NCBI RefSeq assembly: GCF_018866345.1
Contig: NZ_CP076443.1
Coordinates: 395,501-459,500 of the forward strand
DNA: 64,000 nt
Source of the DNA: Gemella sp. zg-570
GTDB taxonomy: Bacteria > Bacillota > Bacilli > Staphylococcales > Gemellaceae
Direction of reading: 5' to 3'
The notes below the pieces were generated by a model. The model worked only from the letters and a program-made list of their open reading frames with translations. It was not told the origin of the DNA and did no database searches. This document shows positions 3,703 to 39,709 of the stretch, piece after piece. Numbering within the stretch: the first letter of the stretch is position 1; every line of letters begins with the position of its first letter. Position numbers and translations under genes: made by a program.

Positions 3703-3711
3703 GGAAATACT

Positions 3712-4347: not shown

Positions 4348-4374
4348 TTAATTGTCATAATATGGAGGATTTAT

Positions 4375-8893: not shown

Positions 8894-8894
8894 T

Positions 8895-9683
8895 TTAACC
8901 TCCCATTATATCTAATTTTTTAAACACATAATATGATAATTTTTTATAAATTATCCATAATATAATAATCCAAAAAATTTGCATAATAAACATAAATAAT
9001 ATTTTGCTATAATTATTATCATATACAATCATAGAAACAGGAGTATACATTATGGAATAAAATGGTGTAAATTCTGATATTTTTAATAACAATTTTGGAT
9101 ATAAGTCTATAGGTAATAGTCCTCCACCAAAAACAATAAGTAGGGCATTTACTAACTCAGAAATACCATTTATTTTTATAAATACTGTTGATAAAAGGGC
9201 AATAATATAGCCTAATAAAAATGCAATAAGATAACTTAGTAAATACATTAAAAGAAAAAGTATCAATCTTTCAAAAGAAAAAATTTTAAAAATTATATTG
9301 TAAAAAAACACCACATAGATAACTAAAATAGGTAATACTTGAAATTTTAATTTATAAAAAAAGTTACCAAAAACAATAAAAAATATTATGATTATCAATC
9401 CATCAGGTCTGTTTAAATAATTAATAATATTACCTTTTAAAATTTTTTCAGATACAAAATTTGTAGCTGATTTTATAGGTAATAATATTTGTAAAATAAT
9501 AGCTAGCAAAACATAAGTTATTATTTCATCAACATCTATAGAATTATATTTTTTTACATAAGTCCATACACTATATTGTATTAATATCATAGTTAAAGAC
9601 GCTATTATTTGCATTATTGTATTAAACTTATATTGACGTAAAGTTTTATATTGATATAAAGAATATCCAAAAAATCTATTCAT
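8895..9683 (-). CDS. ABC-2 type exporter permease (partner subunit)
   Basis: A 262-aa polytopic membrane protein with about six helices, beginning MNRFFGYSLYQYKTLRQYKF. The start at 9683 is chosen because aggtgag lies just upstream; an in-frame GTG at 9692 is possible. The start overlaps the end of the ATPase gene, implying translational coupling. GGGLLPIDLYP followed by PFYSIMYTP in the C-terminal half is typical of the first permease of DUF990-type exporters. It forms a heterodimer with the product of 8102-8893. Confidence 0.8.
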   Translation of the reverse strand: MNRFFGYSLYQYKTLRQYKFNTIMQIIASLTMILIQYSVWTYVKKYNSIDVDEIITYVLLAIILQILLPIKSATNFVSEKILKGNIINYLNRPDGLIIIIFFIVFGNFFYKLKFQVLPILVIYVVFFYNIIFKIFSFERLILFLLMYLLSYLIAFLLGYIIALLSTVFIKINGISELVNALLIVFGGGLLPIDLYPKLLLKISEFTPFYSIMYTPVSMIVYDNNYSKILFMFIMQIFWIIILWIIYKKLSYYVFKKLDIMGG

Positions 9684-10644
9684 AGCTCTCACCTAGCTTG
9701 TCTTTGACAAGTAATACCTCTTGAAGATTTAACTTTAATACCTCTGTTTGTGTAACTATACTTTCATTTGGTATTAGTTTTAATAAATCTATTACATTAA
9801 ATTTGCTTTCATCAAAAACAAATTCTTTTGAATCAATATTTGTACGCAGTAAAAATATACCTTCTTTTTTTAAATCATATAGATTTTCTCCGTACATTTT
9901 TATTTTTTTATATTTATTAAAAATATCTTTGAAGCTTTTAACTGCTCCATCATAAGTTATTTGCCCATCACTTATTAAAATCATTCTTTTACAAGTTTTT
10001 TCTATATCTGAAATTTCGTGAGTTGTTAATATTATAGTAGTATTGTATTGTTTATTTATTTTTAAAATGAGTTCAATAATTATTCTCTTTGTTTCTATAT
10101 CTAAACCTATGGTAGGTTCATCTAAAAAAACTAATTTTGGTTTGTGTATTATGCTGGCTATAAATTCTCCACGCATTCTTTGCCCTAAGGAAAGTTGTCT
10201 AACTGGCTGATATAAGTATTCGGTTACATTTAATTCTTTTATCAAATAATTTAGCCATTCTTCATCTTCTAAATCATAAATTTTTGATAGGTATTTAAAG
10301 GAATCTATCAGGGGTAAATCCCACCATAAATGAGATTTTTGCCCAAAGAGTACCCCAATATTTTTAGCATTACTTTGTCTATTGACAAAAGGGTCTTTAC
10401 CTAAAACTTTTATACTTCCTTTTGTAGCAGTGAGTATACCTAATAATAATTTTATAGTTGTAGATTTACCTGCACCATTGTTTCCTATATATCCTACAAT
10501 TTCTCCTTCCGATATTTTGAAAGTTATATTTTTTAAAGCATTTTTAATTTTCTTTTCAGTTTTTAAAAAACTAACTCTGTTTTTAATTATATAGTCTTTA
10601 CTAAGACTATCAACACTTACTATTTCCTTCATAATTTGCCTCAT
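9676..10644 (-). CDS. ABC-2 type exporter ATPase
   Basis: A 322-aa ATPase with Walker A (GNNGAGKST), Q-loop (FGQKSHLWWDL), signature LSLGQRMRGE, Walker B (LVFLDEPTIGLD) and the H-loop (TTHE). The W-W-DLP segment after the Q-loop and the LSLGQR signature are typical of ATPases partnering DUF990/ABC-2 permeases. The ATG overlaps the stop of the decarboxylase frame (atga). A second in-frame ATG at 10632 has a better-placed ribosome binding site and may be the true start. It energises the two permeases downstream. Confidence 0.85.
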   Translation of the reverse strand: MRQIMKEIVSVDSLSKDYIIKNRVSFLKTEKKIKNALKNITFKISEGEIVGYIGNNGAGKSTTIKLLLGILTATKGSIKVLGKDPFVNRQSNAKNIGVLFGQKSHLWWDLPLIDSFKYLSKIYDLEDEEWLNYLIKELNVTEYLYQPVRQLSLGQRMRGEFIASIIHKPKLVFLDEPTIGLDIETKRIIIELILKINKQYNTTIILTTHEISDIEKTCKRMILISDGQITYDGAVKSFKDIFNKYKKIKMYGENLYDLKKEGIFLLRTNIDSKEFVFDESKFNVIDLLKLIPNESIVTQTEVLKLNLQEVLLVKDKLGESYE

Positions 10645-11712
10645 ATTTGTAATATTTTTTTGTCGATAATTAAGTATTCTTTATATTTTTTATAAAGATG
10701 AAAATTTCTAAAATTTGAAATAGTATAACTACCAAATCCAGGAAAAATAATTATATCTCCTTTATTTTTTGTTTCAAGTGAAAAATTTCCAAAACAATCC
10801 CCATAATACATAGTATTACCCATAACTTCATATTTTTCTTTCTTTATTTTAGGATTCAATATTATAGGTTTTTCTATTCCCCAAGGTGATGAAACCCATA
10901 TAGATGAATCAACAAAAAGTATATTTTTATTATTAACAATTTTTTTATTAACTACAGACGTGAGTAAAAATCCACAGTATTTCAATAGAGCATCTCCAGG
11001 TTCAAAAATTAATTTAATTTTTTTAAATACCGGATCACTATTCAAATTAATTAAAATTTTTAAAAACTTACTCCTATTTTTATATAATGTTAATAAATCT
11101 CCACCCATATTTATTTCTTTTATTGTAGGATACTTTTCTATTAAATTTTTAGATATTTTAATTCTATTTAGAAATTCTTCTACATTAAAATTATTAGAGT
11201 GATAATGTATTCGTATGATTTTTTTATTTTTTTCTTAATATATTCAAAATCATGTTTATTGCTTATAGGTATGCCATAATTTTCATACTTAGAGTTATCT
11301 AAACTTATTCTAATTCCAATATTTTCATTATTAATGTAGTTTATTTGTTCTATGTTATCTATATCAATTATATTGTTTTTTGAAATTTCTCTAATATCAT
11401 TTATACTTAAACAAGGAGACGTTATTGATATTTTATCAAAATTTAATTTTCTTACTAAACTATATTCTTCATAACTTGCAACATCACCCCTAAATCAAGT
11501 TTTTTTAAAATTTTTAATATTTCTATGTTATTATTAGCTTTTACAGCGAAATATAAATCTGATCTATAGAATAAAGATAAATCTTTTTTAAAATTTTCTA
11601 TAGTTTTAATTAAAAAATTGTAATCATAACAAACACAAGGAGTTTTTAAATCTTTAATTATATCAAAGAAATTACGATCAAAAGTTGGCAAAATAAATTT
11701 ACTAAGTTGCAT
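10641..11712 (-). pseudogene. Fold type III PLP decarboxylase (ornithine/DAP decarboxylase-like) with two frameshifts
   Basis: Read across three frames this is one protein of about 357 residues. Frame 1 starts at 11712 and has TPCVCYDYNFL and YFAVKANNN, where the lysine is the PLP-binding residue of fold III decarboxylases. After a shift at the CCCC run 11487-11490 it continues GDVASYEEYSLV and RISLDNSKYENYGIP. After a second shift in an A-run at about 11218-11226 it continues IRIHYHSNN, INMGGDLL, FEPGDALL, GDCFGN and FPGFGSYT. These are the family's glycine-rich, EPGR-like and active-site C-terminal motifs. Both shifts are in homopolymers, so they may be real decay, reversible slippage or sequencing error. 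The intact enzyme would decarboxylate ornithine, lysine or a related amino acid, which fits the adjacent arginase. Confidence 0.75.
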
Positions 11713-11725
11713 AAATTTCTTCTTA

Positions 11726-12976
11726 CTACATATTATTTATTAATTCTATAATTTTTTCTAAATTTTTATTACAGTAGCCTACAGCTATTTTTAAAAAGCA
11801 TTTCCTGTTGTTAATGTCATATATAATTTTTTCAATCCTAGTTTTGTGAAATCCAAAACTAGAACCATAATCAATTAAGTAATCTTCTTGTGCTGGGTTA
11901 TCAATAATTATTTTTATTAATTTATCATATTCACTCTCAATATCTATATTTAATTGAATTAAAATAAAAGGTGATTTTGAATGTTTAAAAATAGTGTTTT
12001 TTAAGACAGGGTGGACTATTTTTTTGAATTTTATGTTATTAATACGTTTCGCGACATAACTATTGTTTTCGTGAATTTTTTTTATATATTTTTCCAAATA
12101 AATACTATGGAATAAAAAGTTGTTAGTAAATATTCTTAATGATGATAAATTTAAATTTGTACCATATAGCATTCTATTTTCAACAACTGTATTGGTATAT
12201 TTTTCAAATTCATTTTTAATTTTTTCATCTCGGAAATTACTGATTAAAATAGCCATTCCAGAACTTGTTAATTCTAACCCAAATTGATATAACTTAAGTA
12301 GAGATTGAACAATGATACAAAAGATATTTTCTTTATTCAATATCTTTTTTATTTTATCAATATCTATATTGAAATGGCTAATTAATGTTATATCAATAAT
12401 AATAATTTTTATTTTTTTATTATTAGAATAGTCATTAAATAATTTTATAATATGATAAATATCAAAAATATTCATGTTTAAAGAATAAGTAACTGGTTCA
12501 ATAAATAAAATATCTATATCATTAGAAATTATTTCATTTACTAAGTCTAATTCATTGTTCGCAGACTTATATATTACAGGAAAGGTTAATTTTTTTAAAA
12601 ATTTATCTGTTTCAAAATATCCTATAGTACTTAATATAGTTATTTTAGTTTTATTATATCCCTCTATGTATGTTGTTATTAAAGTTGTTATTGCAGACAT
12701 ACCTGAATTAAATAAAAGTATTTTATCTTTATTATCAATTAATGAATTATATTTTTCCTCAATATTATTATATTTAATATTTCTTTCGTATACAAAAGAA
12801 TCTCCTAAAATTTTATTTTGATAATAAGTGCTTTGTGAGGTGTATTTTGGAGATTTATATTTGAAATACAAATCTAAAAATAGGCTATCTTTAATCAATT
12901 CTTCTTTAAAATCTAAAAAAGAATTAATTTTATTTTTTCTTACATTCGAGTTATGTACTAAATTCTTTAGTTCCAA
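11726..12976 (-). CDS. Cys/Met-metabolism-type PLP-dependent enzyme
   Basis: A 416-aa fold type I PLP enzyme. Family landmarks are YERN near 63 (substrate/phosphate loop), FNSGMSAITTL at 89-99 (like the SGMAAI phosphate-binding turn of cystathionine gamma-synthase relatives), Asp195 in IIIIDITLI as pyridine partner, and VQSLLKLYQFG with Lys228 as the probable Schiff-base lysine. The rest is diverged, so the reaction (gamma/beta elimination or replacement) cannot be named. The gene follows the arginase with a 4-base gap and precedes the decarboxylase by 13 bases, so it belongs to the same transcription unit. Confidence 0.65.
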   Translation of the reverse strand: MELKNLVHNSNVRKNKINSFLDFKEELIKDSLFLDLYFKYKSPKYTSQSTYYQNKILGDSFVYERNIKYNNIEEKYNSLIDNKDKILLFNSGMSAITTLITTYIEGYNKTKITILSTIGYFETDKFLKKLTFPVIYKSANNELDLVNEIISNDIDILFIEPVTYSLNMNIFDIYHIIKLFNDYSNNKKIKIIIIDITLISHFNIDIDKIKKILNKENIFCIIVQSLLKLYQFGLELTSSGMAILISNFRDEKIKNEFEKYTNTVVENRMLYGTNLNLSSLRIFTNNFLFHSIYLEKYIKKIHENNSYVAKRINNIKFKKIVHPVLKNTIFKHSKSPFILIQLNIDIESEYDKLIKIIIDNPAQEDYLIDYGSSFGFHKTRIEKIIYDINNRKCFLKIAVGYCNKNLEKIIELINNM

Positions 12977-12980
12977 TATA

Positions 12981-13835
12981 TCACCTCAATACTTTAATTA
13001 AATCCAATATTATTTTGCATATATTTAAACTATCCATTCTATTTTTATCATTTAATTCTACAATATCTAAAGCAATAATTTTTATATTATATTCCATAAA
13101 TTTATCAATAATATAATTAATTTCTCTATATGTGAACCCTCCTGGGATTGGCGTTCCAGTTGATGTTATAAATTCTGTAGATAGGCAATCTACATCAAAG
13201 GTTAAATAGTATCCTATGTTCTTATCCATAGATTTTAAAATTTTATCTATATTTAATAAAACATCTTTTGTATTAAAACTACGAATCTTATTATGCTTAT
13301 ATATTTTAGAGTACTCATCTATTCCAAATTGATATAAAAATTTAATTTCTTTATTTCCTATAATCCAATTTAAAAAATTACCGTGGTGTAGATATTCTCT
13401 CCAATTTTGATTTGAATTTAATTCTGTTTGAAAATCTTGATGAGCATCAAAATGAATAATTCCAAATTCTTTTTTAGAATTTATAACACCTTTAATTGTA
13501 GAATACGAAATAGAATGATCTCCTCCTAAAATTATGGGTATTTTATTAGATGAAATTAAATACTCAACAATATTAGATGCAAAATCAAACTCTTTACCAT
13601 TACTCTTATAAATTCTTCTATTTATATCCCCAATATCATAAGCTTCTAATGGTAATGATACAAAATTATTATTAAAATAATCATACAAAGAACTACTATA
13701 TTCTCTTAATAATACTGGGGCATTTCTTGAACCAGCATAATTTGAAGAACCTAAATCATAAGGAAATCCAAAAAATACTATCGCCTTATTGTTTATATTA
13801 ATATCTTGTATATTTATCTTTCTGCTATTAAACAT
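12981..13835 (-). CDS. Arginase-family ureohydrolase, candidate peptide arginase
   Basis: A 284-aa ureohydrolase with all metal-binding motifs: LGGDHS at 103-108, FDAHQD at 129-134, HHGN at 150-153, FDVDC at 213-217 and the E260 region (LDIVEL). Such enzymes hydrolyse a guanidino group, releasing urea from arginine, agmatine or peptidyl arginine. Free-arginine arginases are usually about 300 aa, so length does not discriminate. The gene is the first clear one of a minus-strand operon ending in a peptide with two arginines near its C-terminus, and a second arginase sits in the divergent operon. Conversion of peptidyl arginine to ornithine, as known for the landornamide pathway, is therefore the favoured inference. 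Free ornithine production for the adjacent decarboxylase is the alternative. Confidence 0.75.
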   Translation of the reverse strand: MFNSRKINIQDININNKAIVFFGFPYDLGSSNYAGSRNAPVLLREYSSSLYDYFNNNFVSLPLEAYDIGDINRRIYKSNGKEFDFASNIVEYLISSNKIPIILGGDHSISYSTIKGVINSKKEFGIIHFDAHQDFQTELNSNQNWREYLHHGNFLNWIIGNKEIKFLYQFGIDEYSKIYKHNKIRSFNTKDVLLNIDKILKSMDKNIGYYLTFDVDCLSTEFITSTGTPIPGGFTYREINYIIDKFMEYNIKIIALDIVELNDKNRMDSLNICKIILDLIKVLR

Positions 13836-14363: not shown

Positions 14364-15425
14364 AGTAAATTATATAATTAAGTTAGCCAGTGATACAAAA
14401 AAAAGCATCTCATAGGATATACTTTTAGTAACTACAAAAAAAGGATACCAAGAGATGCAAGAACATTATAACACAAAAGGCAAACACATTACAGAAAAAG
14501 AGCGTTATTTAATTGAAAAATGGAAAAAAGAAGGAAAAAGTAACCGAGAAATCGCTAGATTATTAGGCAAAAATCACCAAACTATTAATAACGAAATTAA
14601 ACGCGGACTGATTGATTTATCTTTTCATGGTGGCACTAAAGAATACTCTGCTCAAAAAGCACAGAATGATTATAATCATTTACGTTTAGCCGTAGGTAGA
14701 ACGGATACGTGGACTGTAGAAAAAGAAAATGTAATCAGAGAAAAAATTATGGATAAATATTCCCCTGAAATGATTAGTCAATTACCAGATATGCCGTCTT
14801 TTACGACAATTTACACATGGATATATAAAGGATGGATAGCAGGTATTTCACGTAAACATCTGATTTACCCTAGAAAAACTAAACCAATAAAATCAAATGA
14901 AAAACGACCACCAAGAAAAACGAATGCCCTCTCTATTGAACAGCGACCACAAGAGATTAACGAACGAAAAGAAATTGGGCATTTTGAAATTGATTTAGTC
15001 ATTTTAAACAAGAAACGTGGACAACAGTTATTGACATTAACAGACAGAAAAACACGCTATGAAATCATTCGTCTTATTCCTGATAAAACGGCCCAAAGTG
15101 TGAATACCGCTTTGACGTCTATTCAACAAGACTATTTAATTCGCTCTTTAACAGCTGATAATGGTTCTGAATTTTTAAGACTAGACGAAGCCATCACTTG
15201 TCCTATTTATTACGCACATCCGTTTTCTTCTTATGAACGAGGTAGTAACGAAAATGCAAATCGATTGATTAGACGATGGTTCCCAAAAGGCACAACAACC
15301 GTTACTCCTAACGAAGTAACGGCTGTTGAACAATGGATAAATCGTTATCCACGTAAATTATTTAATTATGTATGTCCTTATGACTTGCCTGAGGTGGCTA
15401 ACTTACTATTGTAATTTGCGATCTG
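14364..15425 (+). mobile_element. IS30-family insertion sequence, copy 1
   Basis: The element spans 1062 bp, bounded by comparison with copy 2 (27478-28538). Imperfect terminal inverted repeats are visible: aaattatataattaagttagcca at 14367-14389 against tggctaacttactattgtaattt at 15395-15417. A 3-bp repeat (taa) flanks the outermost shared bases, as expected for IS30-type insertion. Its GC content is clearly higher than that of its surroundings. A hairpin (gcatctc/gagatgc) precedes the transposase start and could block read-through transcription. Confidence 0.85.
14455..15414 (+). CDS. IS30-family transposase
   Basis: A 319-aa transposase with an N-terminal helix-turn-helix (ERYLIEKWKKEGKSNREIARLLGKNHQTI read in parts), followed by the IS30-type DDE core: D in GHFEIDLV, D in LTADNGSEF, and E in ERGSNENANRLIRRWFPKGT. 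The C-terminus runs into the right inverted repeat. Compared with copy 2 it differs at only four residues (Glu/Lys16, Asp/His, Pro/Leu and His/Tyr), so both are recent and probably active or recently active. Confidence 0.95.
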   Translation: MQEHYNTKGKHITEKERYLIEKWKKEGKSNREIARLLGKNHQTINNEIKRGLIDLSFHGGTKEYSAQKAQNDYNHLRLAVGRTDTWTVEKENVIREKIMDKYSPEMISQLPDMPSFTTIYTWIYKGWIAGISRKHLIYPRKTKPIKSNEKRPPRKTNALSIEQRPQEINERKEIGHFEIDLVILNKKRGQQLLTLTDRKTRYEIIRLIPDKTAQSVNTALTSIQQDYLIRSLTADNGSEFLRLDEAITCPIYYAHPFSSYERGSNENANRLIRRWFPKGTTTVTPNEVTAVEQWINRYPRKLFNYVCPYDLPEVANLLL

Positions 15426-15681
15426 TAAAAAAGTGAAGAATTCAAATTTTAAATAATTCAAAAGTAGTAATTTATTAGTATGTTATATTAGTTTTATAGA
15501 TTATAGAAAGGGAGAAAAAGAAATTCTATTATCAGTTCTTATAAAAAATAAGAGCCATGGTTGGAAAAAATTAAGAATAAATTTTTTAATAAATTAAAGA
15601 TATAATTTTCAGAAAAATATAGTAAAAATTCCCTAATATCTTATATAATTTCAAAAAAAAATATAAAAAACAGAAAATAAG
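15426..15681. other. AT-rich upstream region of the YcaO operon
   Basis: No gene is visible in these 256 bases. A run gaaagggagaaaa near 15507 resembles a ribosome binding site but is not followed by a useful frame. The region may hold a regulator binding site for the promoter at 15682; no clear dyad is visible. Confidence 0.35.
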
Positions 15682-15710
15682 TTGACGAAAATTTATTTTT
15701 TTGATATTCT
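15682..15710 (+). promoter_or_regulatory. Promoter of the RiPP operon
   Basis: TTGACG at 15682-15687 and TATTCT at 15705-15710 with an optimal 17-bp spacer. The precursor ATG lies 34 bases downstream of the -10 box, with a ribosome binding site (aaaggggg) in between. Transcription would begin near 15717. Confidence 0.7.
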
Positions 15711-15744
15711 TTAATCATAATAATTAAAGAAAGGGGGAAATACC

Positions 15745-15876
15745 ATGAAAAAAGTTAATAAAAATAATGTTATAAACTCTACTAAAGATAAAAAAGAAAA
15801 TCTTATTATAAAAAAGGTTAGCGTTTCAAAACCTGTAGTTGCACAATCAAAATGCAGATATTCTAGTGCGTATTAA
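15745..15876 (+). CDS. RiPP precursor peptide with core ending in SKCRYSSAY
   Basis: A 43-aa peptide, first gene of the operon, with promoter and strong ribosome binding site. The Lys/Asn-rich leader (about residues 1-30) has no signal peptide. The tail VVAQSKCRYSSAY holds the only cysteine (Cys37), one arginine (Arg38), serines 35, 40 and 41, and a terminal Tyr43. Cys and Ser/Thr are the substrates of YcaO cyclodehydratases and LanB-type dehydratases, and Arg of a peptide arginase. All three enzymes are encoded directly downstream. The last six residues follow R-x-S-x-x-Y, as in the peptide at 7896-8069. A hairpin follows 20 bases after the stop. Confidence 0.8.
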   Translation: MKKVNKNNVINSTKDKKENLIIKKVSVSKPVVAQSKCRYSSAY

Positions 15877-15896
15877 AATAGTGTAGGGTTATTAGA

Positions 15897-15926
15897 AAGA
15901 GTGTGAAGAATTATCTTTGCACTCTT
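15897..15926 (+). terminator. Hairpin between precursor and modification genes (partial terminator)
   Basis: The arms aagagtg (15897-15903) and cactctt (15920-15926) pair perfectly, and inner aag/ctt can extend the stem. The hairpin is followed by an AT-rich, imperfect T-tract. Its position suggests attenuation: abundant precursor message, with read-through into the enzyme genes, as is common in bacteriocin operons. Confidence 0.65.
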
Positions 15927-15960
15927 ATTTTAAAATATAAAATGGAGGTAGGAAGTATTT

Positions 15961-17754
15961 ATGCAGGAAATAGAAGAAGTGTATTTAAATAATAAAGGAA
16001 AAATGTTTTGCAAATTATTTCAAGATTATTATGAAATACTAGATGATTCAATTTTTGAATATGAATTTCCTAAAATTAATGAAATTAATTTTCTTACAAT
16101 AAATAATATTAGAATACCAGTTATATCTATTAGAGATTATAGCACAGCTGTTGAATTTGTATCACAGTCTAATAATTTTGATAATTATTCTATTTGTATT
16201 TTAGAAACATACAATATATTATATATGATAAAACTTGAGGATTTAGAATCCGTAGTAATTAGGATAGTGGAAAATATTGACTATTCTATTTTGGAATTAT
16301 TTTCAAATAATTATGGAATAATAGCATATCATTCTTTTTTTAATAAACTTGAAGAAAATAATCAAGAAATAATTAAATTTACAAATTATAAATTGTTAAA
16401 TAATAAGTCTGTTGTATACAGAAAACATACAGGGAATATAGAGTATGTAGATGTAGTAAAATACCCTAATAAGAAAACTGTAGCATTTTCGGATGCAGAT
16501 CTAATTTCAGAAAATTATGAATTAGGAGATACACGATATTTAAGTGTCCATGATTCAAATAATTTAATTAGTTCCATAAGTGAATTATCTCCTGTTTATA
16601 AGGTGGAAAGTTTAGACGAATATAGTGATTTAAATTTTAAAATATATAAATCTTATTCGTCAAGAAAGGATATTGAAAATAAATTTTCTGTTCATGGTGG
16701 AAAGGGGAGTACAGATGTACAATCATTTTTTAGTGCGGTAGGAGAAGGAATAGAGAGATATTCTGCCAGATTATTTTTGTACGATAATAAATATATAATA
16801 ACAGATAGTTATAAAAATTTAAAGAGACTTGGGAGAAGAATTCTTAATCCTATAGAATTAAAATTAGATGAAAATTTTATAAATGAATATTCTCAATGTA
16901 AAAATTTTGAGTGGATTGAAGGATACTGTTTAACGAATAAGGAAAAAATTTTTTTACCAGCAAATAGTGTATTCTTTCCATATGATCGCCCTAAAGAACT
17001 TATGTTACATTCACAATCAACCACTGGAATTTCTTCAGAAGTAACATTTTCTAGAGCTATTTTGCAAGGTTTATTGGAAGTCTTAGAAAGAGATTCCTAT
17101 TCGATAGTACATAAAGCAAGGATGAAAGTTAAGGTAATTGAAATTAATGAATGTGATGATAAATCTATAAAAAGAATATTAAAATTTTTGAATGAAAAAG
17201 ATATAAACATTCATCTAACGTTAATTAGCCAATTTTCTTTTGTTCATGTTGTGCACTGTACATTGGAATCTAAAAAATATCCTATATATACACATGGTTC
17301 AGGGGCTAATTTGAGTATTCTTGTAGCAATAAAAAGAAGTATTTTTGAAGCAATACAGTTACGAGTTTCACAAAAAGAATTAGAGTATTTAATTAAAGAT
17401 AACATAGAGCATGAAGAAATACCTTCAGTTTTATGGGGAATGGGAATTAAAGAATATGTTTCACCCTTTTTAATTAATATAGATAGTGAAAAAATAAAAT
17501 TTACTAGTATAAATGATTTATCTACTGGGAATATAATATTAGATTTACAATTTTTAGTAGATAATTTAAAAAGAGAAAGCTACAATGTTTATTGTGCGAA
17601 TTTAACCCGAGATGATGTCCTTTTATATACAGCAAGAGTAATAGTCCCGGGATTACAAGATATAGATAATTATAATACTAAAGTAACAAAAAGATTAAAA
17701 AATATACTGAGAGAAAAAGGAAAGTTAATTAATACATTAAGAATGTTTAGTTAA
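15961..17754 (+). CDS. YcaO-domain RiPP cyclodehydratase-like enzyme
   Basis: A 597-aa protein. Residues 1-200 are an unassigned N-terminal region (possible leader-recognition or E1-like remnant); residues about 210-597 are a YcaO domain. Visible ATP/Mg motifs are GEGIERYSAR at 261-270, AILQGLLEVLERDSY at 366-380 and IFEAIQLR at 461-468, with a late ARVIVPGLQD at 558-567. YcaO enzymes phosphorylate the backbone amide to make azolines, thioamides or amidines. The C-terminus (INTLRMFS) lacks the PxPxP end common in azoline-forming YcaO proteins, and no separate ThiF/E1-like partner is seen in the operon. The exact chemistry is therefore open. A ribosome binding site (tggaggtagg) lies upstream. 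The arginase gene starts 10 bases downstream. Confidence 0.85.
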   Translation: MQEIEEVYLNNKGKMFCKLFQDYYEILDDSIFEYEFPKINEINFLTINNIRIPVISIRDYSTAVEFVSQSNNFDNYSICILETYNILYMIKLEDLESVVIRIVENIDYSILELFSNNYGIIAYHSFFNKLEENNQEIIKFTNYKLLNNKSVVYRKHTGNIEYVDVVKYPNKKTVAFSDADLISENYELGDTRYLSVHDSNNLISSISELSPVYKVESLDEYSDLNFKIYKSYSSRKDIENKFSVHGGKGSTDVQSFFSAVGEGIERYSARLFLYDNKYIITDSYKNLKRLGRRILNPIELKLDENFINEYSQCKNFEWIEGYCLTNKEKIFLPANSVFFPYDRPKELMLHSQSTTGISSEVTFSRAILQGLLEVLERDSYSIVHKARMKVKVIEINECDDKSIKRILKFLNEKDINIHLTLISQFSFVHVVHCTLESKKYPIYTHGSGANLSILVAIKRSIFEAIQLRVSQKELEYLIKDNIEHEEIPSVLWGMGIKEYVSPFLINIDSEKIKFTSINDLSTGNIILDLQFLVDNLKRESYNVYCANLTRDDVLLYTARVIVPGLQDIDNYNTKVTKRLKNILREKGKLINTLRMFS

Positions 17755-17764
17755 GGATTTAATT

Positions 17765-18868
17765 ATGAAATATTTTATTAATAATTACATTAAAAGAGAA
17801 GAGAATGGAATAAGAATTTCAGAAATTTATTTAGAAATGAATAAAGAAAGCGCAGATTTTTTATATAAGAATAGAGGTAAATATATTGATATTTTATTTG
17901 GCAATGATGATATAGAGATATTAATTAATTATAGTTTTATAAGCTTATTTCCAAATTATTATAATTTGATTCCTAATACAAGTTATTCTTTATTTGGGAT
18001 TGATAGTAGATGTTTACTAGAAGATTTGAATGATGTAGAGAGTAGAGAGAAGAAGGTTGGAGTTTTTGAATTTCCTTATTTTCAAGGGACAATAAAGCAT
18101 AATTACAATAGAGATTCTATTTCTATACTAAAGGATATGTCAAATAAATTTCCAAATCCAAATATAAGTATAAGAGAAAATAAAGATTTAGATGTCGAAT
18201 GTTCATATATCTATGATTACGGGTTCCTTAATATAAATTTTAATAGTAAAATGATAAATGAAATTGAATCTATATCTTATAAAATATACTCTTCAAATAA
18301 TAATATATTCCCTTTGTTTTTGGGAGGGGATCATACTATAACATACCCGATTGTCAAAGGAATAAATAATAGTGGTTATAAGTCATTAAGGTTATTGTAT
18401 TTTGATGCACATTTAGATATATCAGAACTAGAAGAATTACACAATGGAAATGTAATGAAAAAATTAAAAGAAAGCTTTAGTGGAGATATAGAGTTGATAA
18501 ATTTTGGTGCGAGGAGTCCATTATTTATAGAAGAATATAACACTTCAAGAGACTTGACAAAATTTACTGATATAGAAAACTTAATAACTTACTTAAAAAA
18601 GAATAAGAATATACCATTATATATTTCGATTGATTTGGATTATTTAGATCCTGTTTATAATCCGGGGGTTACTTATCCTGTACCAAATGGTTCAACTGTA
18701 AATAACTTATTGGAAATTATTAGGAAAATATTTGATTTAGATGTGAAAGTTTTAGGAATTGATATTGTAGAATATAATTCCAGCAATGATTTGTCTCTTG
18801 TAGGGGCCAACACATCTGCATATTTAATCTACAATTTATTAAAAGATATGGCAAAATTTTATAAATAA
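17765..18868 (+). CDS. Arginase-family enzyme with N-terminal extension, candidate peptide arginase
   Basis: A 367-aa protein. About 110 N-terminal residues of unknown fold precede a ureohydrolase domain with intact metal motifs: LGGDHT near 188-193, FDAHLD near 212-217, the histidine in ELHNGN, SIDLDYLDP near 291-299 and GIDIVEYN. The extension is unusual for free-arginine arginases and could bind the leader peptide. The gene lies between YcaO and LanB-like genes, so peptidyl Arg38 of the precursor is the obvious candidate substrate, giving ornithine. Peptide arginases are known from landornamide biosynthesis; here the partner enzymes differ. Agmatinase-like activity on a small molecule cannot be excluded. 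Confidence 0.75.
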   Translation: MKYFINNYIKREENGIRISEIYLEMNKESADFLYKNRGKYIDILFGNDDIEILINYSFISLFPNYYNLIPNTSYSLFGIDSRCLLEDLNDVESREKKVGVFEFPYFQGTIKHNYNRDSISILKDMSNKFPNPNISIRENKDLDVECSYIYDYGFLNINFNSKMINEIESISYKIYSSNNNIFPLFLGGDHTITYPIVKGINNSGYKSLRLLYFDAHLDISELEELHNGNVMKKLKESFSGDIELINFGARSPLFIEEYNTSRDLTKFTDIENLITYLKKNKNIPLYISIDLDYLDPVYNPGVTYPVPNGSTVNNLLEIIRKIFDLDVKVLGIDIVEYNSSNDLSLVGANTSAYLIYNLLKDMAKFYK

Positions 18869-18881
18869 GTAAGGAGAATAT

Positions 18882-21299
18882 ATGAATTTCAAAAAAATAA
18901 CATTAAGAAAACCAGTATTATCAATGGGGAAATTTGATAATTCTTTCTCAGATATTGATATTATACTAAAATTCATGAATATATATACTCCTGAAGGTAA
19001 GACTAAATACGTAAATAGAATGAGGTATAGAACAAATCCTCTATTTGGTATGGTACTAGAACATAATGTGACTATAAGTGAAAAGAAAGTTGAGTATAGT
19101 TATCCTGAATTGAAAAAAGCCAATATTTTCTATGTTCCTACTGGAAAATATTTCTTTAATAGGGAATTTATGGACTATGGTGATTACTATGAATTAAAAA
19201 AAAATGGTGAATTAATAAGGATAGAAAAAATTTATCTTAAAGATATAGTAGAATTTTGTACAAAAAATAGATTTATAAATAATGAGTTATTATATAAATT
19301 ATTAAACTTTAGATTACTTGGCTATTCTGATAGTGACATTAGGTTATTAGTCGAAAATTTATTGGAAAATAAGTTTTTACTTCCTGAATCAGAAGAAAAA
19401 ATAGTATTATCTGATATATCTGAAGATGGGATACTTGTACGTCCAAGATTAAGTAATGAGATGTATTATTTAGATCTTCCAAGTAATGATATAGTAGAAT
19501 TGGGTAATTTTTTAGGTAGATTGCGTAAAAAGAGAAATCTAAAAGGTTATTATGAATTAGTAGAAGAATTTACAGATGCGTATTCTTTTATAAAAATAAG
19601 TATACTAGATATTTTGAAAAACTACAATTTTTTGAATAAAGTAAATGAATTTATATCTATTAATGAGTATGATGGAAGTGAAGAATGGACTAAATTTATA
19701 TGTGAACACCTAGATGCTTATTTTATGACTAATGATAAAAATTTTTTGGATATTAGAGTAAAAAAACTTAATTTTGAGAAGAACTATGAATATAATTTCG
19801 ATGTTACTGTTAATATAATAGAAGTTAAAGGAAAATTATTATATAACTTGGATACATCTAAACCTTTATATAGAAGTTTTTCTATAAATGAAGAGATACA
19901 AGAAAATAAGTATTCGTTAAATTATAAATCAGAGAATAATATTACTAATTATTTTTTAAAAAATAAACAAAAAAAAGGAATAAATATTAATTATTCAAGA
20001 AATATATCTAGCGATTTAAATTTAAATGATTTATTTTTAACTGTGAATGAAAAAAATAGAGAATTTATATTAACTGATAAAGACGGTAAGCAGGTAGATA
20101 TAAGTATAAATTCACCAATTAATCTAAAATTACTAGATGATGTATGTAGACTTCTATTACTAGTTTCTAATATAGATAATATAGCTTATAATTATATACC
20201 AACTTTAATAAAAGATTATAACTATATACCAAGATTAATGATTAATAGAAAATTTATTATTTATAGGGAACAGTTTGTTATTAAGTATAATAAGTTATTA
20301 TTTTCTGATATATCTAAATTTAGAGACGTACTATTGAAAATATACGAAATGTGTGAATCTCAAGATTTTTCTTATGTAATAAGTGATGTGGAAATATTTG
20401 TAGATTTTAATGATAGCAATGTAATTTTTTTCTTATTTAAAGAATTAAAAAAATATTCAATCCTGCATTTTAAAGAATTTATACAGAAAGACAGTATAAT
20501 ATATGAAAAAAATGAACATTATGCTAATGAAGTGATTATTTCATATGATGTAGGTAGTCATAATAGTAAAGATAATTGTACTAAGTTGTACCCAATAGTA
20601 GAAAATCCATATAAAAGGGATATGTTGAAAGATTGGATATATTTAGAGTTGGTTTTAGATTCTTTTATAAGTGATGTCTTTCTAGCATTAAATAGTATTT
20701 TAGAAAATGACATAAAATTTTTTTATCTATTCTATATTAATGGTAATAATGAAAGAGTATTGAGATTAAGGTGTAAAGGAATAAATAATTTTCATAAAAT
20801 TACTTTTATATTGAGTAGCTTTAAATTAAATAATTTCAAGATATTACCTTATGAAAAAGAAATTTGCAGATACTATAATTTAGGAATTGATAATTTTGAA
20901 AAATTTTCCTGTGAAGATTCAAAAAGAATTTTGAATACTCTAAAAGATTGTGTAGATTTTGATAATATGACCGAATTAGAAAAATTTATGTTGATGTTAG
21001 AGAATACAGTATATCTTTTTGATTATTTTTCAATTGCTTATGAGTCTAGATATACAATGCTAAAAAAATATATAAAAGGAAAGGAAGATAGAGATAAAAA
21101 AAAATTAGTGAAAATAAATATAAATTTAAATAAAAGAAAAATAAAATATTTTACTAATAAAAATTATATCAGAGCTGAACATCTTTCCCTGATACATTTA
21201 AGTAATGTAAGATTAGTGGGGAATGAGTTGGATATTGAAAGAGAAGTGTACAAATATTTAGCAATTTTTTATAAGGAGGAAAAATGGAGAACGAAATAA
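18882..21299 (+). CDS. LanB-like peptide dehydratase with SpaB-type C-terminal domain
   Basis: An 805-aa protein. Near residues 46-57, RMRYRTNPLFGM corresponds to the R..RPTPFGLFAG motif of LanB glutamylation domains. From about residue 580 it matches the SpaB_C elimination domain: KDWIYLELVLDSF, FFYLFYINGN, RVLRLRCKG, ILPYEKEICRYYNLG near 652, and DS..IL. Both halves are present, so it is shorter than, but organised like, full-length LanB (about 1000 aa). Such enzymes use glutamyl-tRNA to activate Ser/Thr and then eliminate glutamate, giving dehydro-residues. The substrate would be Ser35/40/41 of the precursor. Its end overlaps the next gene by 16 bases. Confidence 0.75.
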   Translation: MNFKKITLRKPVLSMGKFDNSFSDIDIILKFMNIYTPEGKTKYVNRMRYRTNPLFGMVLEHNVTISEKKVEYSYPELKKANIFYVPTGKYFFNREFMDYGDYYELKKNGELIRIEKIYLKDIVEFCTKNRFINNELLYKLLNFRLLGYSDSDIRLLVENLLENKFLLPESEEKIVLSDISEDGILVRPRLSNEMYYLDLPSNDIVELGNFLGRLRKKRNLKGYYELVEEFTDAYSFIKISILDILKNYNFLNKVNEFISINEYDGSEEWTKFICEHLDAYFMTNDKNFLDIRVKKLNFEKNYEYNFDVTVNIIEVKGKLLYNLDTSKPLYRSFSINEEIQENKYSLNYKSENNITNYFLKNKQKKGININYSRNISSDLNLNDLFLTVNEKNREFILTDKDGKQVDISINSPINLKLLDDVCRLLLLVSNIDNIAYNYIPTLIKDYNYIPRLMINRKFIIYREQFVIKYNKLLFSDISKFRDVLLKIYEMCESQDFSYVISDVEIFVDFNDSNVIFFLFKELKKYSILHFKEFIQKDSIIYEKNEHYANEVIISYDVGSHNSKDNCTKLYPIVENPYKRDMLKDWIYLELVLDSFISDVFLALNSILENDIKFFYLFYINGNNERVLRLRCKGINNFHKITFILSSFKLNNFKILPYEKEICRYYNLGIDNFEKFSCEDSKRILNTLKDCVDFDNMTELEKFMLMLENTVYLFDYFSIAYESRYTMLKKYIKGKEDRDKKKLVKININLNKRKIKYFTNKNYIRAEHLSLIHLSNVRLVGNELDIEREVYKYLAIFYKEEKWRTK

Positions 21300-21556
21300 T
21301 AAATAGATATTTGAGAAATGGACGATTAACTGTTATCCCCAAAAAAGAGAATGTAAAAATAATTATATTTTCATATTTATTGGGTGAATTACAAAAAGAA
21401 AATGAAATGTTTTCTGAAAAGGAGCTCAATAAATTTTTGAAAAAATATTATGATGACTATGCTATTTTGAGAAGATATATGATTGACTATGGTTTTTTAA
21501 AGAGAGATAATTATGGAGAAAAGTATACAATAAATAAAAAAGTTAAAGGAGAATAG
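21284..21556 (+). CDS. DUF2087-domain small protein
   Basis: A 90-aa protein overlapping the LanB-like gene by 16 bases, with taaggaggaaaa as ribosome binding site. The sequence follows the DUF2087 pattern: GRLTVIPKKE near residue 13, SEKELNKFLKKYYDDYAILRRYMIDYGFL, and a final basic/aromatic YT stretch. This winged-helix-like domain occurs alone or fused to regulators. Embedded in the modification operon it could be an autoregulator, or a peptide-binding accessory protein; the sequence alone does not decide. Confidence 0.65.
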   Translation: MENEIINRYLRNGRLTVIPKKENVKIIIFSYLLGELQKENEMFSEKELNKFLKKYYDDYAILRRYMIDYGFLKRDNYGEKYTINKKVKGE

Positions 21557-21561
21557 TATTG

Positions 21562-22755
21562 ATGATTAAAAATATTACTAATAAATATTTTATCTTAACT
21601 AGTGGTCTTGCTATGGGAATAGCTATGTTTAACCCAATATTATATATTTTTTTATTAAATCAAGGTTTTACCTACTCACAATTAGGGATATATTTAGCAT
21701 TATTTTTCTTATTTTCATTTTTAACAGAGGTACCTTGTGGAGTAATAACGGATGTAATAGGAGTAAAAAAGACATTACTATTAAGTTGTATTTTTAGAGT
21801 GATCGGATTAATTTTTTTATTAACCCAAAATTTTTACTTACTGTTAATTTCAGCATTATTTTCAGCAATTGCAGAATCTTTTCAATCTGGAACTTTACAA
21901 AGTTGGATTGTAAATAGTTTGGATGAAATAGGAAAAAAGGAAGAAATTTCAAAAATTTTTTCAAGAAGTATGATGATAACTTCGTCATTAACGATGATTG
22001 TTGGTTTTGTGAGTTCTAAAATTTTGTTTAAGCATAATCAAAGTGCGTCACTGATAGCTAGTATTATTATTTTTTCTTTAGTATTTTTAATTGTTTTAAG
22101 TGCATTCCCTAGAACATTTTTAAATAGAGGAAAATTAGATATAATAAGTATTATAAAAAATTCATCAGAGCATTTAAAAAGTACAGTTTTAAAATTATCA
22201 ATTTTGAAAAGTTCAACTTTGCTAATTTTATTGCTATTAATGCCTTCCATTTTAGATGCTGGTCCATCAAATCAATGGCAATCTATTTTTTATATACCTA
22301 ACCTAGATTTTTTAAATGGGTATATATGGGTGATAATTTGTATTTCAGGAATGTTAGGTAGCTTTTTATCAGAAAAAATAGGGAAAGTCGAGAGTAATAA
22401 GTTGTTGTTTACTACTTTACTCATAATGAATAGCATATTAGTAATTGTCATTTATTTTATTAATTTACCAATATTAAAATTTTTAATTTTTATAGTTTAT
22501 ATTATTTTCTTTACGGTACTTTCTATACGATCAAGTGTGATTCTACACGAAGAAATAATATTATATAATAAAAGTAGAACGACCTTAGTTTCTATATTTT
22601 ACGCAGTAGAATCTTTAATAATGAGTGCAGCAGTTTTCCTTAATGGAGTATTATCTGATACTTTTGAAGTAACATTTGTTTGGTTAATATTCGCTGTATT
22701 TGTTTTACTGATACTTATGATTATTTTTGGTGTAAAACGATGGAAAAACAATTAA
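21562..22755 (+). CDS. MFS exporter
   Basis: About 397 aa with 11-12 hydrophobic helices. The loop between helices 2 and 3 carries EVPCGVITDVIGVKKTLLLS, the classic MFS motif A region. The start at 21562 is preceded by aaaggagaa; a TTG one codon earlier is equally possible. It lies two to five bases after the DUF2087 gene and overlaps the next gene. The likely role is export of the mature peptide or self-immunity; the ABC-2 exporter of the divergent operon may do the same for the other peptide. Confidence 0.8.
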   Translation: MIKNITNKYFILTSGLAMGIAMFNPILYIFLLNQGFTYSQLGIYLALFFLFSFLTEVPCGVITDVIGVKKTLLLSCIFRVIGLIFLLTQNFYLLLISALFSAIAESFQSGTLQSWIVNSLDEIGKKEEISKIFSRSMMITSSLTMIVGFVSSKILFKHNQSASLIASIIIFSLVFLIVLSAFPRTFLNRGKLDIISIIKNSSEHLKSTVLKLSILKSSTLLILLLLMPSILDAGPSNQWQSIFYIPNLDFLNGYIWVIICISGMLGSFLSEKIGKVESNKLLFTTLLIMNSILVIVIYFINLPILKFLIFIVYIIFFTVLSIRSSVILHEEIILYNKSRTTLVSIFYAVESLIMSAAVFLNGVLSDTFEVTFVWLIFAVFVLLILMIIFGVKRWKNN

Positions 22756-23765
22756 CAGATAAATTGCTGTATGCAATTATTGAACAGAGAGATTCTATTG
22801 AGTATTTAGCCAGTATTTTACCAAGAGAAAACTTGTTAGAGTATGAAAGGGCGCTAGATAAAAATATTATAATGATAAAAGATGCAAGTGAGGAAGATAT
22901 AATGGAATTATTTAGAAAATATCCACCTAATTTGCCCAATATTGAATTCAGTTTAGAAGGTATTGATATAAAATGTGAGAATTTTATTAATGAAAGTATA
23001 AATAATAATATAAAAAAATACAAGTTTGATTATTATATATGGAGAGATAAAAATGGATTAAAACCATTAATAGATACGTTTAAAGAAAATTATCAATATT
23101 ATGTATTTGGTATAAAAGATAGCGATGTCTTTAATGAGATAAATATAACTAATATTTTGAATTTAATAAAATTTGATATATCTTTATATAACTTTGTAAG
23201 TAAAACATTATGTGAGAATTTAATTTATTTAAATGAAAACTATTATAGATGTGTGTATCTACCATTGAGCAGAGAAAATATATTAATTTTTCCTAATAAT
23301 TATAATAATATTTTTAATAATATATATATATTACATGAAATATCTCATGTTATTTTAAATTATTTTAAAATAAGATATAACTTAATTTTATCAATAGAGG
23401 AAGAAGAAAAGTTTGCTCATTTAATAGAAAGCTCCATTTGCAATGATATTTTAATAAAAAATTTAAAATACTATAGAAAATTTATTACTAACTTGTTGAT
23501 TGAAAATATCGTGAAAACAGAATTTCAAAGGATATTATATAAAGATTTTGAAAACTATAAAGATTATAATAGTAAAAAATTATTGTTAAATAAATTATCA
23601 AAACAATATGGGTTACCAGAAAATTATAATATTTTAGATATTTTTATTGAAGAGATTCCTTTTTATTCCGGTGCATATATTTTAGGTCAAATAGGAGCAG
23701 TAAGTAATTTGAACATGTATTCTTTAAAAGAGTGTTTAATATATATAGAAAATATATATAGCTGA
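22740..23765 (+). CDS. Putative zinc metallopeptidase (HEXXH), candidate leader peptidase
   Basis: The chosen ATG at 22740 overlaps the MFS gene by 16 bases and gives 341 aa; the frame is open upstream to 22680. In the middle, YILHEISHVIL holds an HEXXH zinc motif (HEISH), followed by EEEEKFAHLIESSI, resembling the downstream glutamate arrangement of ImmA/IrrE-like and other gluzincin-type proteases. No signal peptide or membrane segment is seen. As the last gene of the RiPP operon, it is a good candidate for removing the leader. The family is not otherwise recognised. Confidence 0.6.
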   Translation: MEKQLTDKLLYAIIEQRDSIEYLASILPRENLLEYERALDKNIIMIKDASEEDIMELFRKYPPNLPNIEFSLEGIDIKCENFINESINNNIKKYKFDYYIWRDKNGLKPLIDTFKENYQYYVFGIKDSDVFNEINITNILNLIKFDISLYNFVSKTLCENLIYLNENYYRCVYLPLSRENILIFPNNYNNIFNNIYILHEISHVILNYFKIRYNLILSIEEEEKFAHLIESSICNDILIKNLKYYRKFITNLLIENIVKTEFQRILYKDFENYKDYNSKKLLLNKLSKQYGLPENYNILDIFIEEIPFYSGAYILGQIGAVSNLNMYSLKECLIYIENIYS

Positions 23766-23866: not shown

Positions 23867-24476
23867 ATAAGAAAAAAAGTAAAAACAATATGTATTTATA
23901 TATATCCACCCTATATGAAACTAATAAAAGAAATATTTCCTAAAGCAGAAATAATAATAGATAGGTTTCATATAGTACAGAATATAAATAGAGAATTCAA
24001 TAAATACAGAATACAACTAATGAATAAATTCAAAAATAAAGAAAGGCATATATATATATAATTAAAAATATATTGGAGGTTACTATTAAAAGAATATAGT
24101 GAAATAAACTATCAGAAAACTCACTATTCAAGAACATTTGGAAGAACAGTATCTAACAAAGAAGTATTAGATTACATACTATCAATAGATCAAATATTGG
24201 CTAACAACTATAAAATAATGCAAGAAATAAGGTATGCATTAAAGACAAGAAATATAGAATTATTTAAAGAAACTATAAATAATAATGAAGATACTTACTC
24301 TTAAGGTATGATCAAAGCTATTAAAACTATTAAAAAATATGAAGATTATATGATAAATAGCTTGAGATATAACTATTCTAATGGTGTTCTAGAAGGGATT
24401 AATAATAAAATAAAACTTATTAAAAGAGTATCTTATGGGTACATCATTTTATAATTTTAGGTTAAGAATTTTAATT
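23867..24476 (+). pseudogene. ISL3-family transposase fragment
   Basis: An open stretch interrupted by two in-frame stops reads YMKLIKEIFPKAEIIIDRFH (catalytic Asp region), IVQNINREFNKYR, YWRLLLKEY and finally NGVLEGINNKIKLIKRVSYGY (catalytic Glu region). These are diagnostic of ISL3-family transposases. The N-terminal zinc-finger half is missing. Downstream, at about 24571-24595, a degenerate ISL3-like terminal repeat ends in gacttagagcc. Confidence 0.8.
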
Positions 24477-24523
24477 GTATTTAGATTATTGGCGAATTAT
24501 GATAAGAAAAATGACATTAAAAA

Positions 24524-24559
24524 TAATCTTATGCAGCAGAATTCTGCTGCATAAGATTA
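24524..24559. terminator. Perfect 36-bp palindrome
   Basis: Positions 24524-24541 and 24542-24559 are exact reverse complements with no spacer, centred on the EcoRI-like gaattc core. It follows the ISL3 transposase remnant and has no T-run on the plus side. It may be the terminator inside the IS end or a protein-binding palindrome. Confidence 0.55.
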
Positions 24560-24662
24560 CCATTAATTTCCATCCCCAGGATTTGACTTAGAGCCAAAAT
24601 TCTCCATGCCTCGTATTTATTATACAGCCAAAATTTCTCTTGGTCTTTGTTTTTATTTATAG

Positions 24663-27300: not shown

Positions 27301-27477
27301 GTTTTGAGAGAATTTTAAAGTTTAGGAGGAGGTGTCGAGTTAACAGTAATGTTTAATCGGGGTGGAGTTGATAGGGATGTTTGAAAATATTAGTTAAATT
27401 ATAGGAAAAGAAAAAATATTATATAACAATTTAATATTATGACGAGGTTAGTTGTTATATTTTTATTGATAACAATA
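27301..27477. other. Intergenic region left of IS30 copy 2
   Basis: Contains ggaggaggtg and later ggtggagttgatag, which look like ribosome binding sites without a following gene. Nothing else is recognisable. It ends with ataacaata, repeated at the far side of the IS. Confidence 0.3.
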
Positions 27478-28538
27478 CAGATCGCAAATTACAATAGTAA
27501 GTTAGCCACCTCAGGCAAGTCATAAGGACATACATAATTAAATAATTTACGTGGATAACGATTTATCCATTGTTCAACAGCCGTTACTTCGTTAGGAGTA
27601 ACGGTTGTTGTGCCTTTTGGGAACCATCGTCTAATCAATCGATTTGCATTTTCGTTACTACCTCGTTCATAAGAAGAAAACGGATGTGCGTAATAAATAG
27701 GACAAGTGATGGCTTCGTCTAGTCTTAAAAATTCAGAACCATTATCAGCTGTTAAAGAGCGAATTAAATAGTCTTGTTGAATAGACGTCAAAGCGGTATT
27801 CACACTTTGGGCCGTTTTATCAGGAATAAGACGAATGATTTCATAGCGTGTTTTTCTGTCTGTTAATGTCAATAACTGTTGTCCACGTTTCTTGTTTAAA
27901 ATGACTAAATCAATTTCAAAATGCCCAATTTCTTTTCGTTCGTTAATCTCTTGTGGACGCTGTTCAATAGAAAGGGCATTCGTTTTTCTTGGTGGTCGTT
28001 TTTCATTTGATTTTATTGGTTTAGTTTTTCTAGGGTAAATCAGATATTTACGTGAAATACCTGCTATCCATCCTTTATATATCCATGTGTAAATTGTCGT
28101 AAAAGACGGCATATCCAGTAATTGACTAATCATTTCAGGGGAATATTTATGCATAATTTTTTCTCTGATTACATTTTCTTTTTCTACAGTCCACGTATCC
28201 GTTCTACCTACGGCTAAACGTAAATGATTATAATCATTCTGTGCTTTTTGAGCAGAGTATTCTTTAGTGCCACCATGAAAAGATAAATCAATCAGTCCGC
28301 GTTTAATTTCGTTATTAATAGTTTGGTGATTTTTGCCTAATAATCTAGCGATTTCTCGGTTGCTTTTTCCTTCTTTTTTCCATTTTTCAATTAAATAACG
28401 CTTTTTTTCTGTAATGTGTTTGCCTTTTGTGTTATAATGTTCTTGCATCTCTTGGTATCCTTTTTTTGTAGTTACTAAAAGTATATCCTATGAGATGCTT
28501 TTTTTGTATCTCTGGCTAACTTAATTATATAATTTACT
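27478..28538 (-). mobile_element. IS30-family insertion sequence, copy 2
   Basis: A 1061-bp element nearly identical to copy 1 but in reverse orientation. The nine bases ataacaata occur directly on both sides (27469-27477 and 28539-28547), so this copy has an intact target duplication of up to 9 bp (3 bp would be usual for IS30). It sits left of the recombinase remnants of the prophage. Confidence 0.85.
27489..28448 (-). CDS. IS30-family transposase
   Basis: A 319-aa transposase, the same as that of copy 1 except for four substitutions: Lys for Glu at residue 16, His for Asp in M-KYSPEM, Leu for Pro in the following QLL, and Tyr for His in RKYLIYPRK. The DDE residues (FEIDLV, TADNGSEF, SNENANR) are intact. 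The Pro-to-Leu and Asp-to-His changes lie between the HTH and the catalytic core. Confidence 0.95.
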   Translation of the reverse strand: MQEHYNTKGKHITEKKRYLIEKWKKEGKSNREIARLLGKNHQTINNEIKRGLIDLSFHGGTKEYSAQKAQNDYNHLRLAVGRTDTWTVEKENVIREKIMHKYSPEMISQLLDMPSFTTIYTWIYKGWIAGISRKYLIYPRKTKPIKSNEKRPPRKTNALSIEQRPQEINERKEIGHFEIDLVILNKKRGQQLLTLTDRKTRYEIIRLIPDKTAQSVNTALTSIQQDYLIRSLTADNGSEFLRLDEAITCPIYYAHPFSSYERGSNENANRLIRRWFPKGTTTVTPNEVTAVEQWINRYPRKLFNYVCPYDLPEVANLLL

Positions 28539-31387: not shown

Positions 31388-31449
31388 GAAATGAAACATC
31401 TACACTTAAGTAGGTGTTTTTATTATACAAAAAATTAGGAGACAAAATT

Positions 31450-33397: not shown

Positions 33398-33402
33398 GAA
33401 TT

Positions 33403-34569: not shown

Positions 34570-34586
34570 AAAAGGAGTGATAAGCA

Positions 34587-35872: not shown

Positions 35873-35874
35873 GT

Positions 35875-39708: not shown

Positions 39709-39709
39709 A

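Follow-up and report, generated by a model that had tools for sequence, protein, structure and literature searches.

In Gemella sp. zg-570, an operon encodes a short precursor peptide together with a YcaO protein, an arginase-family (PF00491) protein and a divergent LanB dehydratase, and it is reasonably probable that this operon represents one member of a small RiPP family that is horizontally scattered. The short core is probably the substrate of all three enzymes. Such a hybrid family with a PF00491 peptide arginase is apparently undescribed: the first-pass annotation was already aware of no description of such a product class and, in the papers searched, which covered few subscription journals, no matching system was found for a YcaO with an arginase or agmatinase. 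If true, these arginases would form a second, independent group of peptide-acting PF00491 enzymes, and a core some ten residues long could unite ornithine, a YcaO modification and residues of the dehydroalanine type.

Organization of the operon

The window, the whole stretch of 64,000 nucleotides that was analysed, is part of a single 1.56-Mb contig. The genes for precursor, YcaO, arginase, LanB, DUF2087, MFS and HEXXH proteins, with a hairpin behind the first, form one intact operon on the forward strand (15745-23765) that comprises, with its putative promoter, the following features:

15682-15710, + strand: sigma-70-like promoter with extended -10 (TTGACG-17-tgaTATTCT), 9/12 matches, which is near chance density in AT-rich DNA
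15745-15876, + strand: precursor peptide gene, 43 aa, core around QSKCRYSSAY
15897-15931, + strand: hairpin and T-rich tail between precursor and YcaO (13-bp stem at 15897-15926, z=-2.8), likely an attenuator or partial terminator
15961-17754, + strand: YcaO, 597 aa, with a degenerate E1-like segment (residues 1-225) and no PxPxP tail, as judged from Pfam, profile and tree comparisons
17765-18868, + strand: PF00491 arginase-family protein, 367 aa, with an N-terminal extension of about 100 aa; six metal ligands and E336 kept
18882-21299, + strand: LanB dehydratase, divergent, full-length, 805 aa
21284-21556, + strand: DUF2087 protein of 90 aa that probably regulates expression of the precursor
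21559-22755, + strand: MFS transporter, probable exporter or immunity protein
22740-23765, + strand: HEISH metallopeptidase, similar to M3/oligoendopeptidase F profiles, probable leader peptidase

All ORFs are intact at the positions of the first-pass annotation and, from YcaO onward, they are separated by gaps of 2-13 bp or share a 16-bp overlap. Pfam recognised YcaO (PF02624, E=2.9e-52), Arginase (PF00491, 3.4e-36), Lant_dehydr_C (8e-8), DUF2087 (7e-21) and MFS_1 (7e-16). With the intact ORFs, these matches and the homologous clusters described below, the initial reading of the locus as a RiPP operon with this gene content is borne out. By the criteria of RiPP gene clusters, a short precursor co-encoded with tailoring enzymes and conserved in relatives, the operon is one of them. 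Elsewhere in the window, at 3319-5967, a DUF6875 protein and a small protein are encoded beside an ABC exporter and may constitute another peptide or metabolite cluster.

Related clusters

Related clusters were found in five other genomes or plasmids, of which two contain the whole gene set and three are partial. The two complete ones were found among 395 Lactobacillales genomes: one (L045) has precursor, YcaO, arginase, LanB, DUF2087, MFS and HEIGH protein in the exact Gemella order, and the other (L046) has precursor, YcaO, arginase, MFS, DUF2087, LanB and HEIGH protein, its LanB being read as two overlapping ORFs. Searching plasmids by tblastn gave YcaO-arginase-MFS in Levilactobacillus brevis pBRV479 (YcaO domain 40% identity) and YcaO-MFS-DUF2087-split LanB-HEIGH protein, without arginase, in Enterococcus faecium pGR17. 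Finally, a profile scan of genome contigs identified precursor-YcaO-arginase-MFS-HEIGH, without LanB, in Ligilactobacillus faecavium.

The six cluster YcaOs form one clade (support 100/100) against 30 other rows, in which Gemella pairs with L045, L046 with E. faecium, and L. brevis with L. faecavium. The family is rare. No seventh member was obtained by a class-wide profile search of 399 Bacilli genomes, searches of two families likewise gave none, and scans of genome contigs and viruses with single proteins, as well as a viral scan with the YcaO alignment, gave no matches. In the same way, tblastn with LanB on plasmids returned nothing even though the E. faecium LanB was among them, and LanB is therefore too divergent to be a good probe.

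The precursor peptide

Homologous precursors of 26-43 aa, with Lys-rich leaders and a core of the type Q[S/A]KxxY[S/T], are present in five clusters, that of Gemella included:

Gemella, ending in ...IIKKVSVSKPVVAQSKCRYSSAY
L045: MEKKKKAIKKIEVKKPVAAQSKCRYSGPAPTF
L046: MKLVEVKEIKGNKPVASQSKASYTRT
E. faecium: MKLVKIKEIKVKKPVASQSKSSYTGN
L. faecavium: MTKGKTTIKVVKDEKRVPIIKQAKRSYTMSDNY

Gln, Lys, Tyr and the Ser/Thr that follows Tyr are invariant in 5/5 precursors. The Gemella, L045 and L046 peptides each have a single Arg, always within the core; that of L. faecavium has two, one of them in the core, and that of E. faecium has none. The Gemella core contains one Cys and several Ser, and Cys is absent from the E. 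faecium and L046 cores. Pairwise scores among the Gemella, L045, L046 and E. faecium precursors exceed those of all 2000 shuffles. The L. faecavium peptide is weaker, with its score attained by 1-12 of 2000 shuffles in the comparisons with L045, L046 and E. faecium and by 204 of 2000 in that with Gemella, and it has the same position and motif as the other members.

When the window was searched for precursor homology, the Gemella peptide scored 84 against 37 for the next-best ORF. L045, L046, E. faecium and L. faecavium each have a homologous precursor ahead of YcaO, and the remaining ORFs of the window score far lower; on these comparisons, the 43-aa peptide is judged to be a real gene. L045, L046 and E. 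faecium likewise have a hairpin 3' of their precursor gene, which indicates that the layout of precursor, hairpin and operon is conserved. The leader/core-like peptide with promoter and hairpin reported in the first-pass annotation thus stands, with homologous precursors and a 13-bp hairpin behind it and a promoter site that, at 9/12, is near chance density.

Mobility and decay

Two IS30-type elements of 1030 nt (14398-15427 and 27476-28505), 99% identical and inverted, flank 12 kb that include the whole operon. This composite-transposon-like unit is in line with the scattered distribution and the plasmid location of relatives. The flanking copies might also suggest that the genes were assembled by chance between IS30 elements and have no common product. 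However, gene set and order are the same in L045 and nearly so in L046, and the precursors are homologous, so that this explanation is refuted and retains practically no probability.

Of note, a relic of the LanB C-terminus (61 aa, 62% identical) with a broken DUF2087 gene behind it was found in a congener (genome G010, L002 1287-1683), from which it appears that the operon was formerly present in another species of the genus and then decayed. In L. brevis pBRV479 (L010 10193-18085), two IS30 copies interrupt the cluster, one beside YcaO and one within the HEXXH gene, and no intact precursor was found in this cluster, where IS30 adjoins YcaO. The L. brevis cluster is probably dead, because no precursor remains.

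Other mobile DNA was also seen in the window. Transposase fragments, of ISL3 type by eye, lie directly behind the operon (23915-24591), serine recombinases are located near 29 kb and at 46-47.8 kb, and genes read as prophage structural genes (portal, ClpP-like protease, capsid, tail tape measure, holin) extend over 31414-43599.

The arginase-family protein

The metal ligands H190, D214, H216, D218, D290 and D292 as well as E336 are invariant in 5/5 cluster arginases, and the arginase gene lies beside YcaO in these five clusters. A core Arg is found in the four precursors (4/4) encoded beside an arginase, and the precursor of the arginase-free E. faecium cluster has no Arg; the enzyme is absent from the entire pGR17 plasmid. 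In the YcaO tree, E. faecium is embedded among clusters that possess an arginase, so that the simplest history is a joint loss of enzyme and substrate Arg. This association counts five precursors and one loss, for which Fisher's exact test, counted naively, gives about 0.2; as a single contrast among five it is good support, short of conclusive. As four clusters retain both core Arg and arginase and one has lost both, the PF00491 protein is likely to be a peptide arginase that converts the core Arg to ornithine, in agreement with the action on the peptide put forward in the first-pass annotation. KgrD of the enteropeptin pathway is the sole precedent of a PF00491 enzyme acting on a peptide (PMC12703449). 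As would be expected of an enzyme with KgrD-like function, the Gemella protein has, judging from its residues, an intact binuclear metal site, and it is linked to a core Arg.

Alternatively, the substrate of the enzyme could be a small guanidine, be it free arginine, agmatine or some other compound, which it would hydrolyse for instance to supply ornithine or to protect the producer, and only YcaO and LanB would modify the peptide. Its sequence scores resemble those of agmatinases generally, its best solved relatives are agmatinases, arginases and similar small-guanidine enzymes, and a second PF00491 arginase gene is located nearby (12981-13835). On the contrary, its position beside YcaO in five clusters, its disappearance from E. 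faecium along with the precursor's single Arg and the KgrD precedent speak for a peptide substrate. The cluster arginases moreover share an N-terminal extension of 100 aa, unlike ordinary ureohydrolases, which the second arginase of the window lacks, and the protein reaches no NCBIfam equivalog cut-off. An action restricted to small guanidines is thus considered unlikely.

For the likely peptide arginase, a leader-binding RiPP recognition element (RRE) was suspected in the extension and was not confirmed by sequence or fold comparisons. Nothing was found by Pfam or phmmer, hhalign gave P values of 0.01-0.3 with shuffles equally high, and none was detected by Foldseek/VIA, such a fold search not being proof of absence. 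An RRE-like pattern was seen by eye in the L. brevis extension. Single-sequence AF2 of the L. faecavium extension returned a bbb-aaa-b order with a pLDDT of 54, and AF2 of the full arginase with a two-row alignment was poor (pLDDT 47).

The second arginase belongs to a separate cluster on the reverse strand (8102-13835), in which it lacks the extension and is accompanied by three ABC-2 exporter genes, a Cys/Met-type PLP enzyme and a broken Orn/DAP/Arg decarboxylase with only its C-terminal part (10641-11108) open. This cluster is possibly a small-molecule pathway.

The YcaO protein

The ATP-site motifs SAxGExxERY and ExxER are invariant in the cluster YcaOs. The C-terminal PxPxP, the canonical motif of azoline formers (PMC12338566), is absent in 6/6 of them. 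They end instead in [LM]F[ST]; PHPFP or NPIPxF terminates the majority of the LAP-type YcaOs used for comparison. Before the YcaO domain, the Lactobacillus proteins have CxxC pairs and an NGxRH..P..T..PlGPV stretch, the latter similar to the terminal part of the E1-like domain in fused TOMM cyclodehydratases. The likeness was recovered by hhalign (P=2.6e-4) and, in one Lactobacillus member, by TIGR03882 (E=0.08), and the alignment to LynD, TruD and MusD starts about 75 aa before the YcaO domain. These matches support a degenerate E1-like segment at this place, which would be decayed in Gemella and short in E. faecium. No RRE was found on this segment or on YcaO by HMM, hhalign or fold search.

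The first-pass annotation had proposed an azole. This is not supported, because no SagB-type dehydrogenase occurs in the operon of any cluster and all six YcaOs lack the azoline-former motif. No more than an azoline (-18 Da) would be expected, and an amidine or a thioamide is possible. For the azoline itself the chances appear to be roughly even. That YcaO makes an amidine or thioamide, so that the product is not a LAP-type heterocycle, is possible and somewhat doubtful. The [LM]F[ST] ends and the closest solved relative of the YcaO profile are compatible with it: MJ1094, a methanogen YcaO of McrA thioamidation, comes first (3.8e-48), ahead of MusD, LynD and TruD (1e-29 to 1e-31). In parallel, the NCBIfam models SagD and methan_mark_1 give nearly equal scores, both below the cut-off. 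However, no TfuA or sulfur-supply gene is present in the operon, the N-terminal segment of the Lactobacillus proteins resembles a vestige of the E1-like protein that partners azoline formers, and a Ser/Thr follows the core Tyr in 5/5 cores. In any case, this PxPxP-free clade is a test case for the choice between azoline and amidine or thioamide.

A bolder scheme, which we consider quite improbable, is that the ornithine amine produced by the arginase serves as the YcaO nucleophile to give a backbone cyclic amidine, the arginase-free E. faecium enzyme using a Ser/Thr oxygen. If true, it would be a RiPP heterocycle built from arginine by two enzymes.

The LanB dehydratase

Besides its Lant_dehydr_C match, LanB possesses equivalents of the NisB elimination residues R784, R786, R826 and H961. 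NisB K79, R83 and R87 align with K42, R46 and R50, with a Lys at the R83 position in E. faecium. The N-terminal domain is very divergent: Lant_dehydr_N matches with E=0.13 in Gemella and 1.4e-5 in E. faecium, and a family-only profile found no PDB match at E<=0.01. LanB and DUF2087 genes are co-present in 4/4 clusters and co-absent in 2/2. The core reads QSK in members with LanB and QAK in the LanB-free L. faecavium, and this one contrast points to the QSK serine as the candidate LanB substrate.

An enzyme with the NisB catalytic residues and a core with one Cys and several Ser could also be those of a class I lanthipeptide, with YcaO and arginase as accessory enzymes. Nevertheless, no LANC_like match was obtained in the Gemella genome or operon, which makes a lanthionine ring unlikely; moreover, the E. 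faecium and L046 cores lack Cys and LanB is missing in 2/6 clusters. This alternative is accordingly given very little probability. Assignment to the lanthipeptide or thiopeptide class was rejected, as neither LanC nor a cycloaddition enzyme was found. In Streptococcus salivarius, plasmid pSaLI10 (L012) carries two YcaO genes, a lantibiotic dehydratase, a thiopeptide-type SpaB_C protein, a SagB dehydrogenase and an ABC exporter, which on this gene content is a separate YcaO/LanB hybrid cluster on oral plasmids.

Accessory proteins and proposed pathway

In bottromycin biosynthesis, the DUF2087 protein BtmL raises transcription of the precursor gene (PMC7113386) and, by analogy, the DUF2087 protein of the operon is probably a regulator. 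The MFS gene is present in 6/6 clusters. The HEXXH protein starts at ATG 22740 and not at TTG 22680. The Gemella HEISH protein has no Pfam match, and the family resembles M3 peptidases (TIGR02289, E=4e-11 for L. faecavium; oligoendopeptidase F, E=1.2e-6 for the family profile). It is probably an M3-like cytosolic leader peptidase that would act before MFS export.

The reactions, their order and the product are predicted from this gene content with a fair degree of confidence. Since a hairpin follows the precursor gene, the precursor would be made in excess over the enzymes, with DUF2087 tuning its expression. In the cytosol, the PF00491 arginase would hydrolyse the core Arg to ornithine and urea. 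With ATP, YcaO would activate the backbone amide next to a core Cys, Ser or Thr, most likely to yield an azoline that is not oxidised, and LanB with glutamyl-tRNA would dehydrate a core Ser, perhaps that of QSK. The M3-like peptidase would then cut off the leader and the MFS protein export the product.

The first-pass annotation had the core modified by YcaO, LanB and arginase alike. Of this proposal the shared substrate remains probable, and azole and lanthionine are unsupported. The three modifications are not obligatorily coupled, because E. faecium has no arginase and the two Lactobacillus clusters have no LanB. Nature thus offers clusters with all three enzymes, without the arginase and without LanB, in which the core changes accordingly, and from this series the residue that each enzyme would modify can be predicted.

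Comparison with known systems

In the enteropeptins of Enterococcus cecorum, a PF00491 arginase, KgrD, turns a precursor Arg into ornithine, the role predicted here, and a Cys stands next to this Arg as in the KCR of the Gemella and L045 cores. However, KgrD requires the thiomorpholine, and its pathway relies on a radical SAM thiomorpholine synthase and a methyltransferase where YcaO and LanB are found here; by Pfam, no radical SAM protein is present among the Gemella operon proteins. OspR-type peptide arginases (landornamide) likewise convert peptide Arg to Orn, but they belong to PF12640, have an EEH motif and often act with large leaders. The Gemella enzyme matches PF00491 and not PF12640 in Pfam, and is associated with a GGDH motif and tiny leaders.

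With linear azol(in)e peptides and TOMMs (LynD, TruD, SagCD), the operon shares a YcaO that bears remnants of a fused E1-like partner. It differs by the missing PxPxP, the truncated E1 segment, the lack of a recognisable YcaO RRE and of a SagB dehydrogenase. The DUF2087 protein has its counterpart in the bottromycin YcaO cluster, where BtmL carries an additional N-terminal ArsR-like domain; the proteins of the present clusters are stand-alone DUF2087 domains of 85-91 aa. Finally, goadsporin, thiopeptides and dehydrazoles combine on one core a YcaO and a lanthipeptide-type Ser/Thr dehydratase, but those described have no arginase and larger cores. Thiopeptides furthermore need a cycloaddition enzyme, and dehydrazole pathways employ a DUF4135 domain of LanM type along with a dehydrogenase. 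Among the systems met in the literature searched, enteropeptins and dehydrazoles are the nearest to the Gemella operon.
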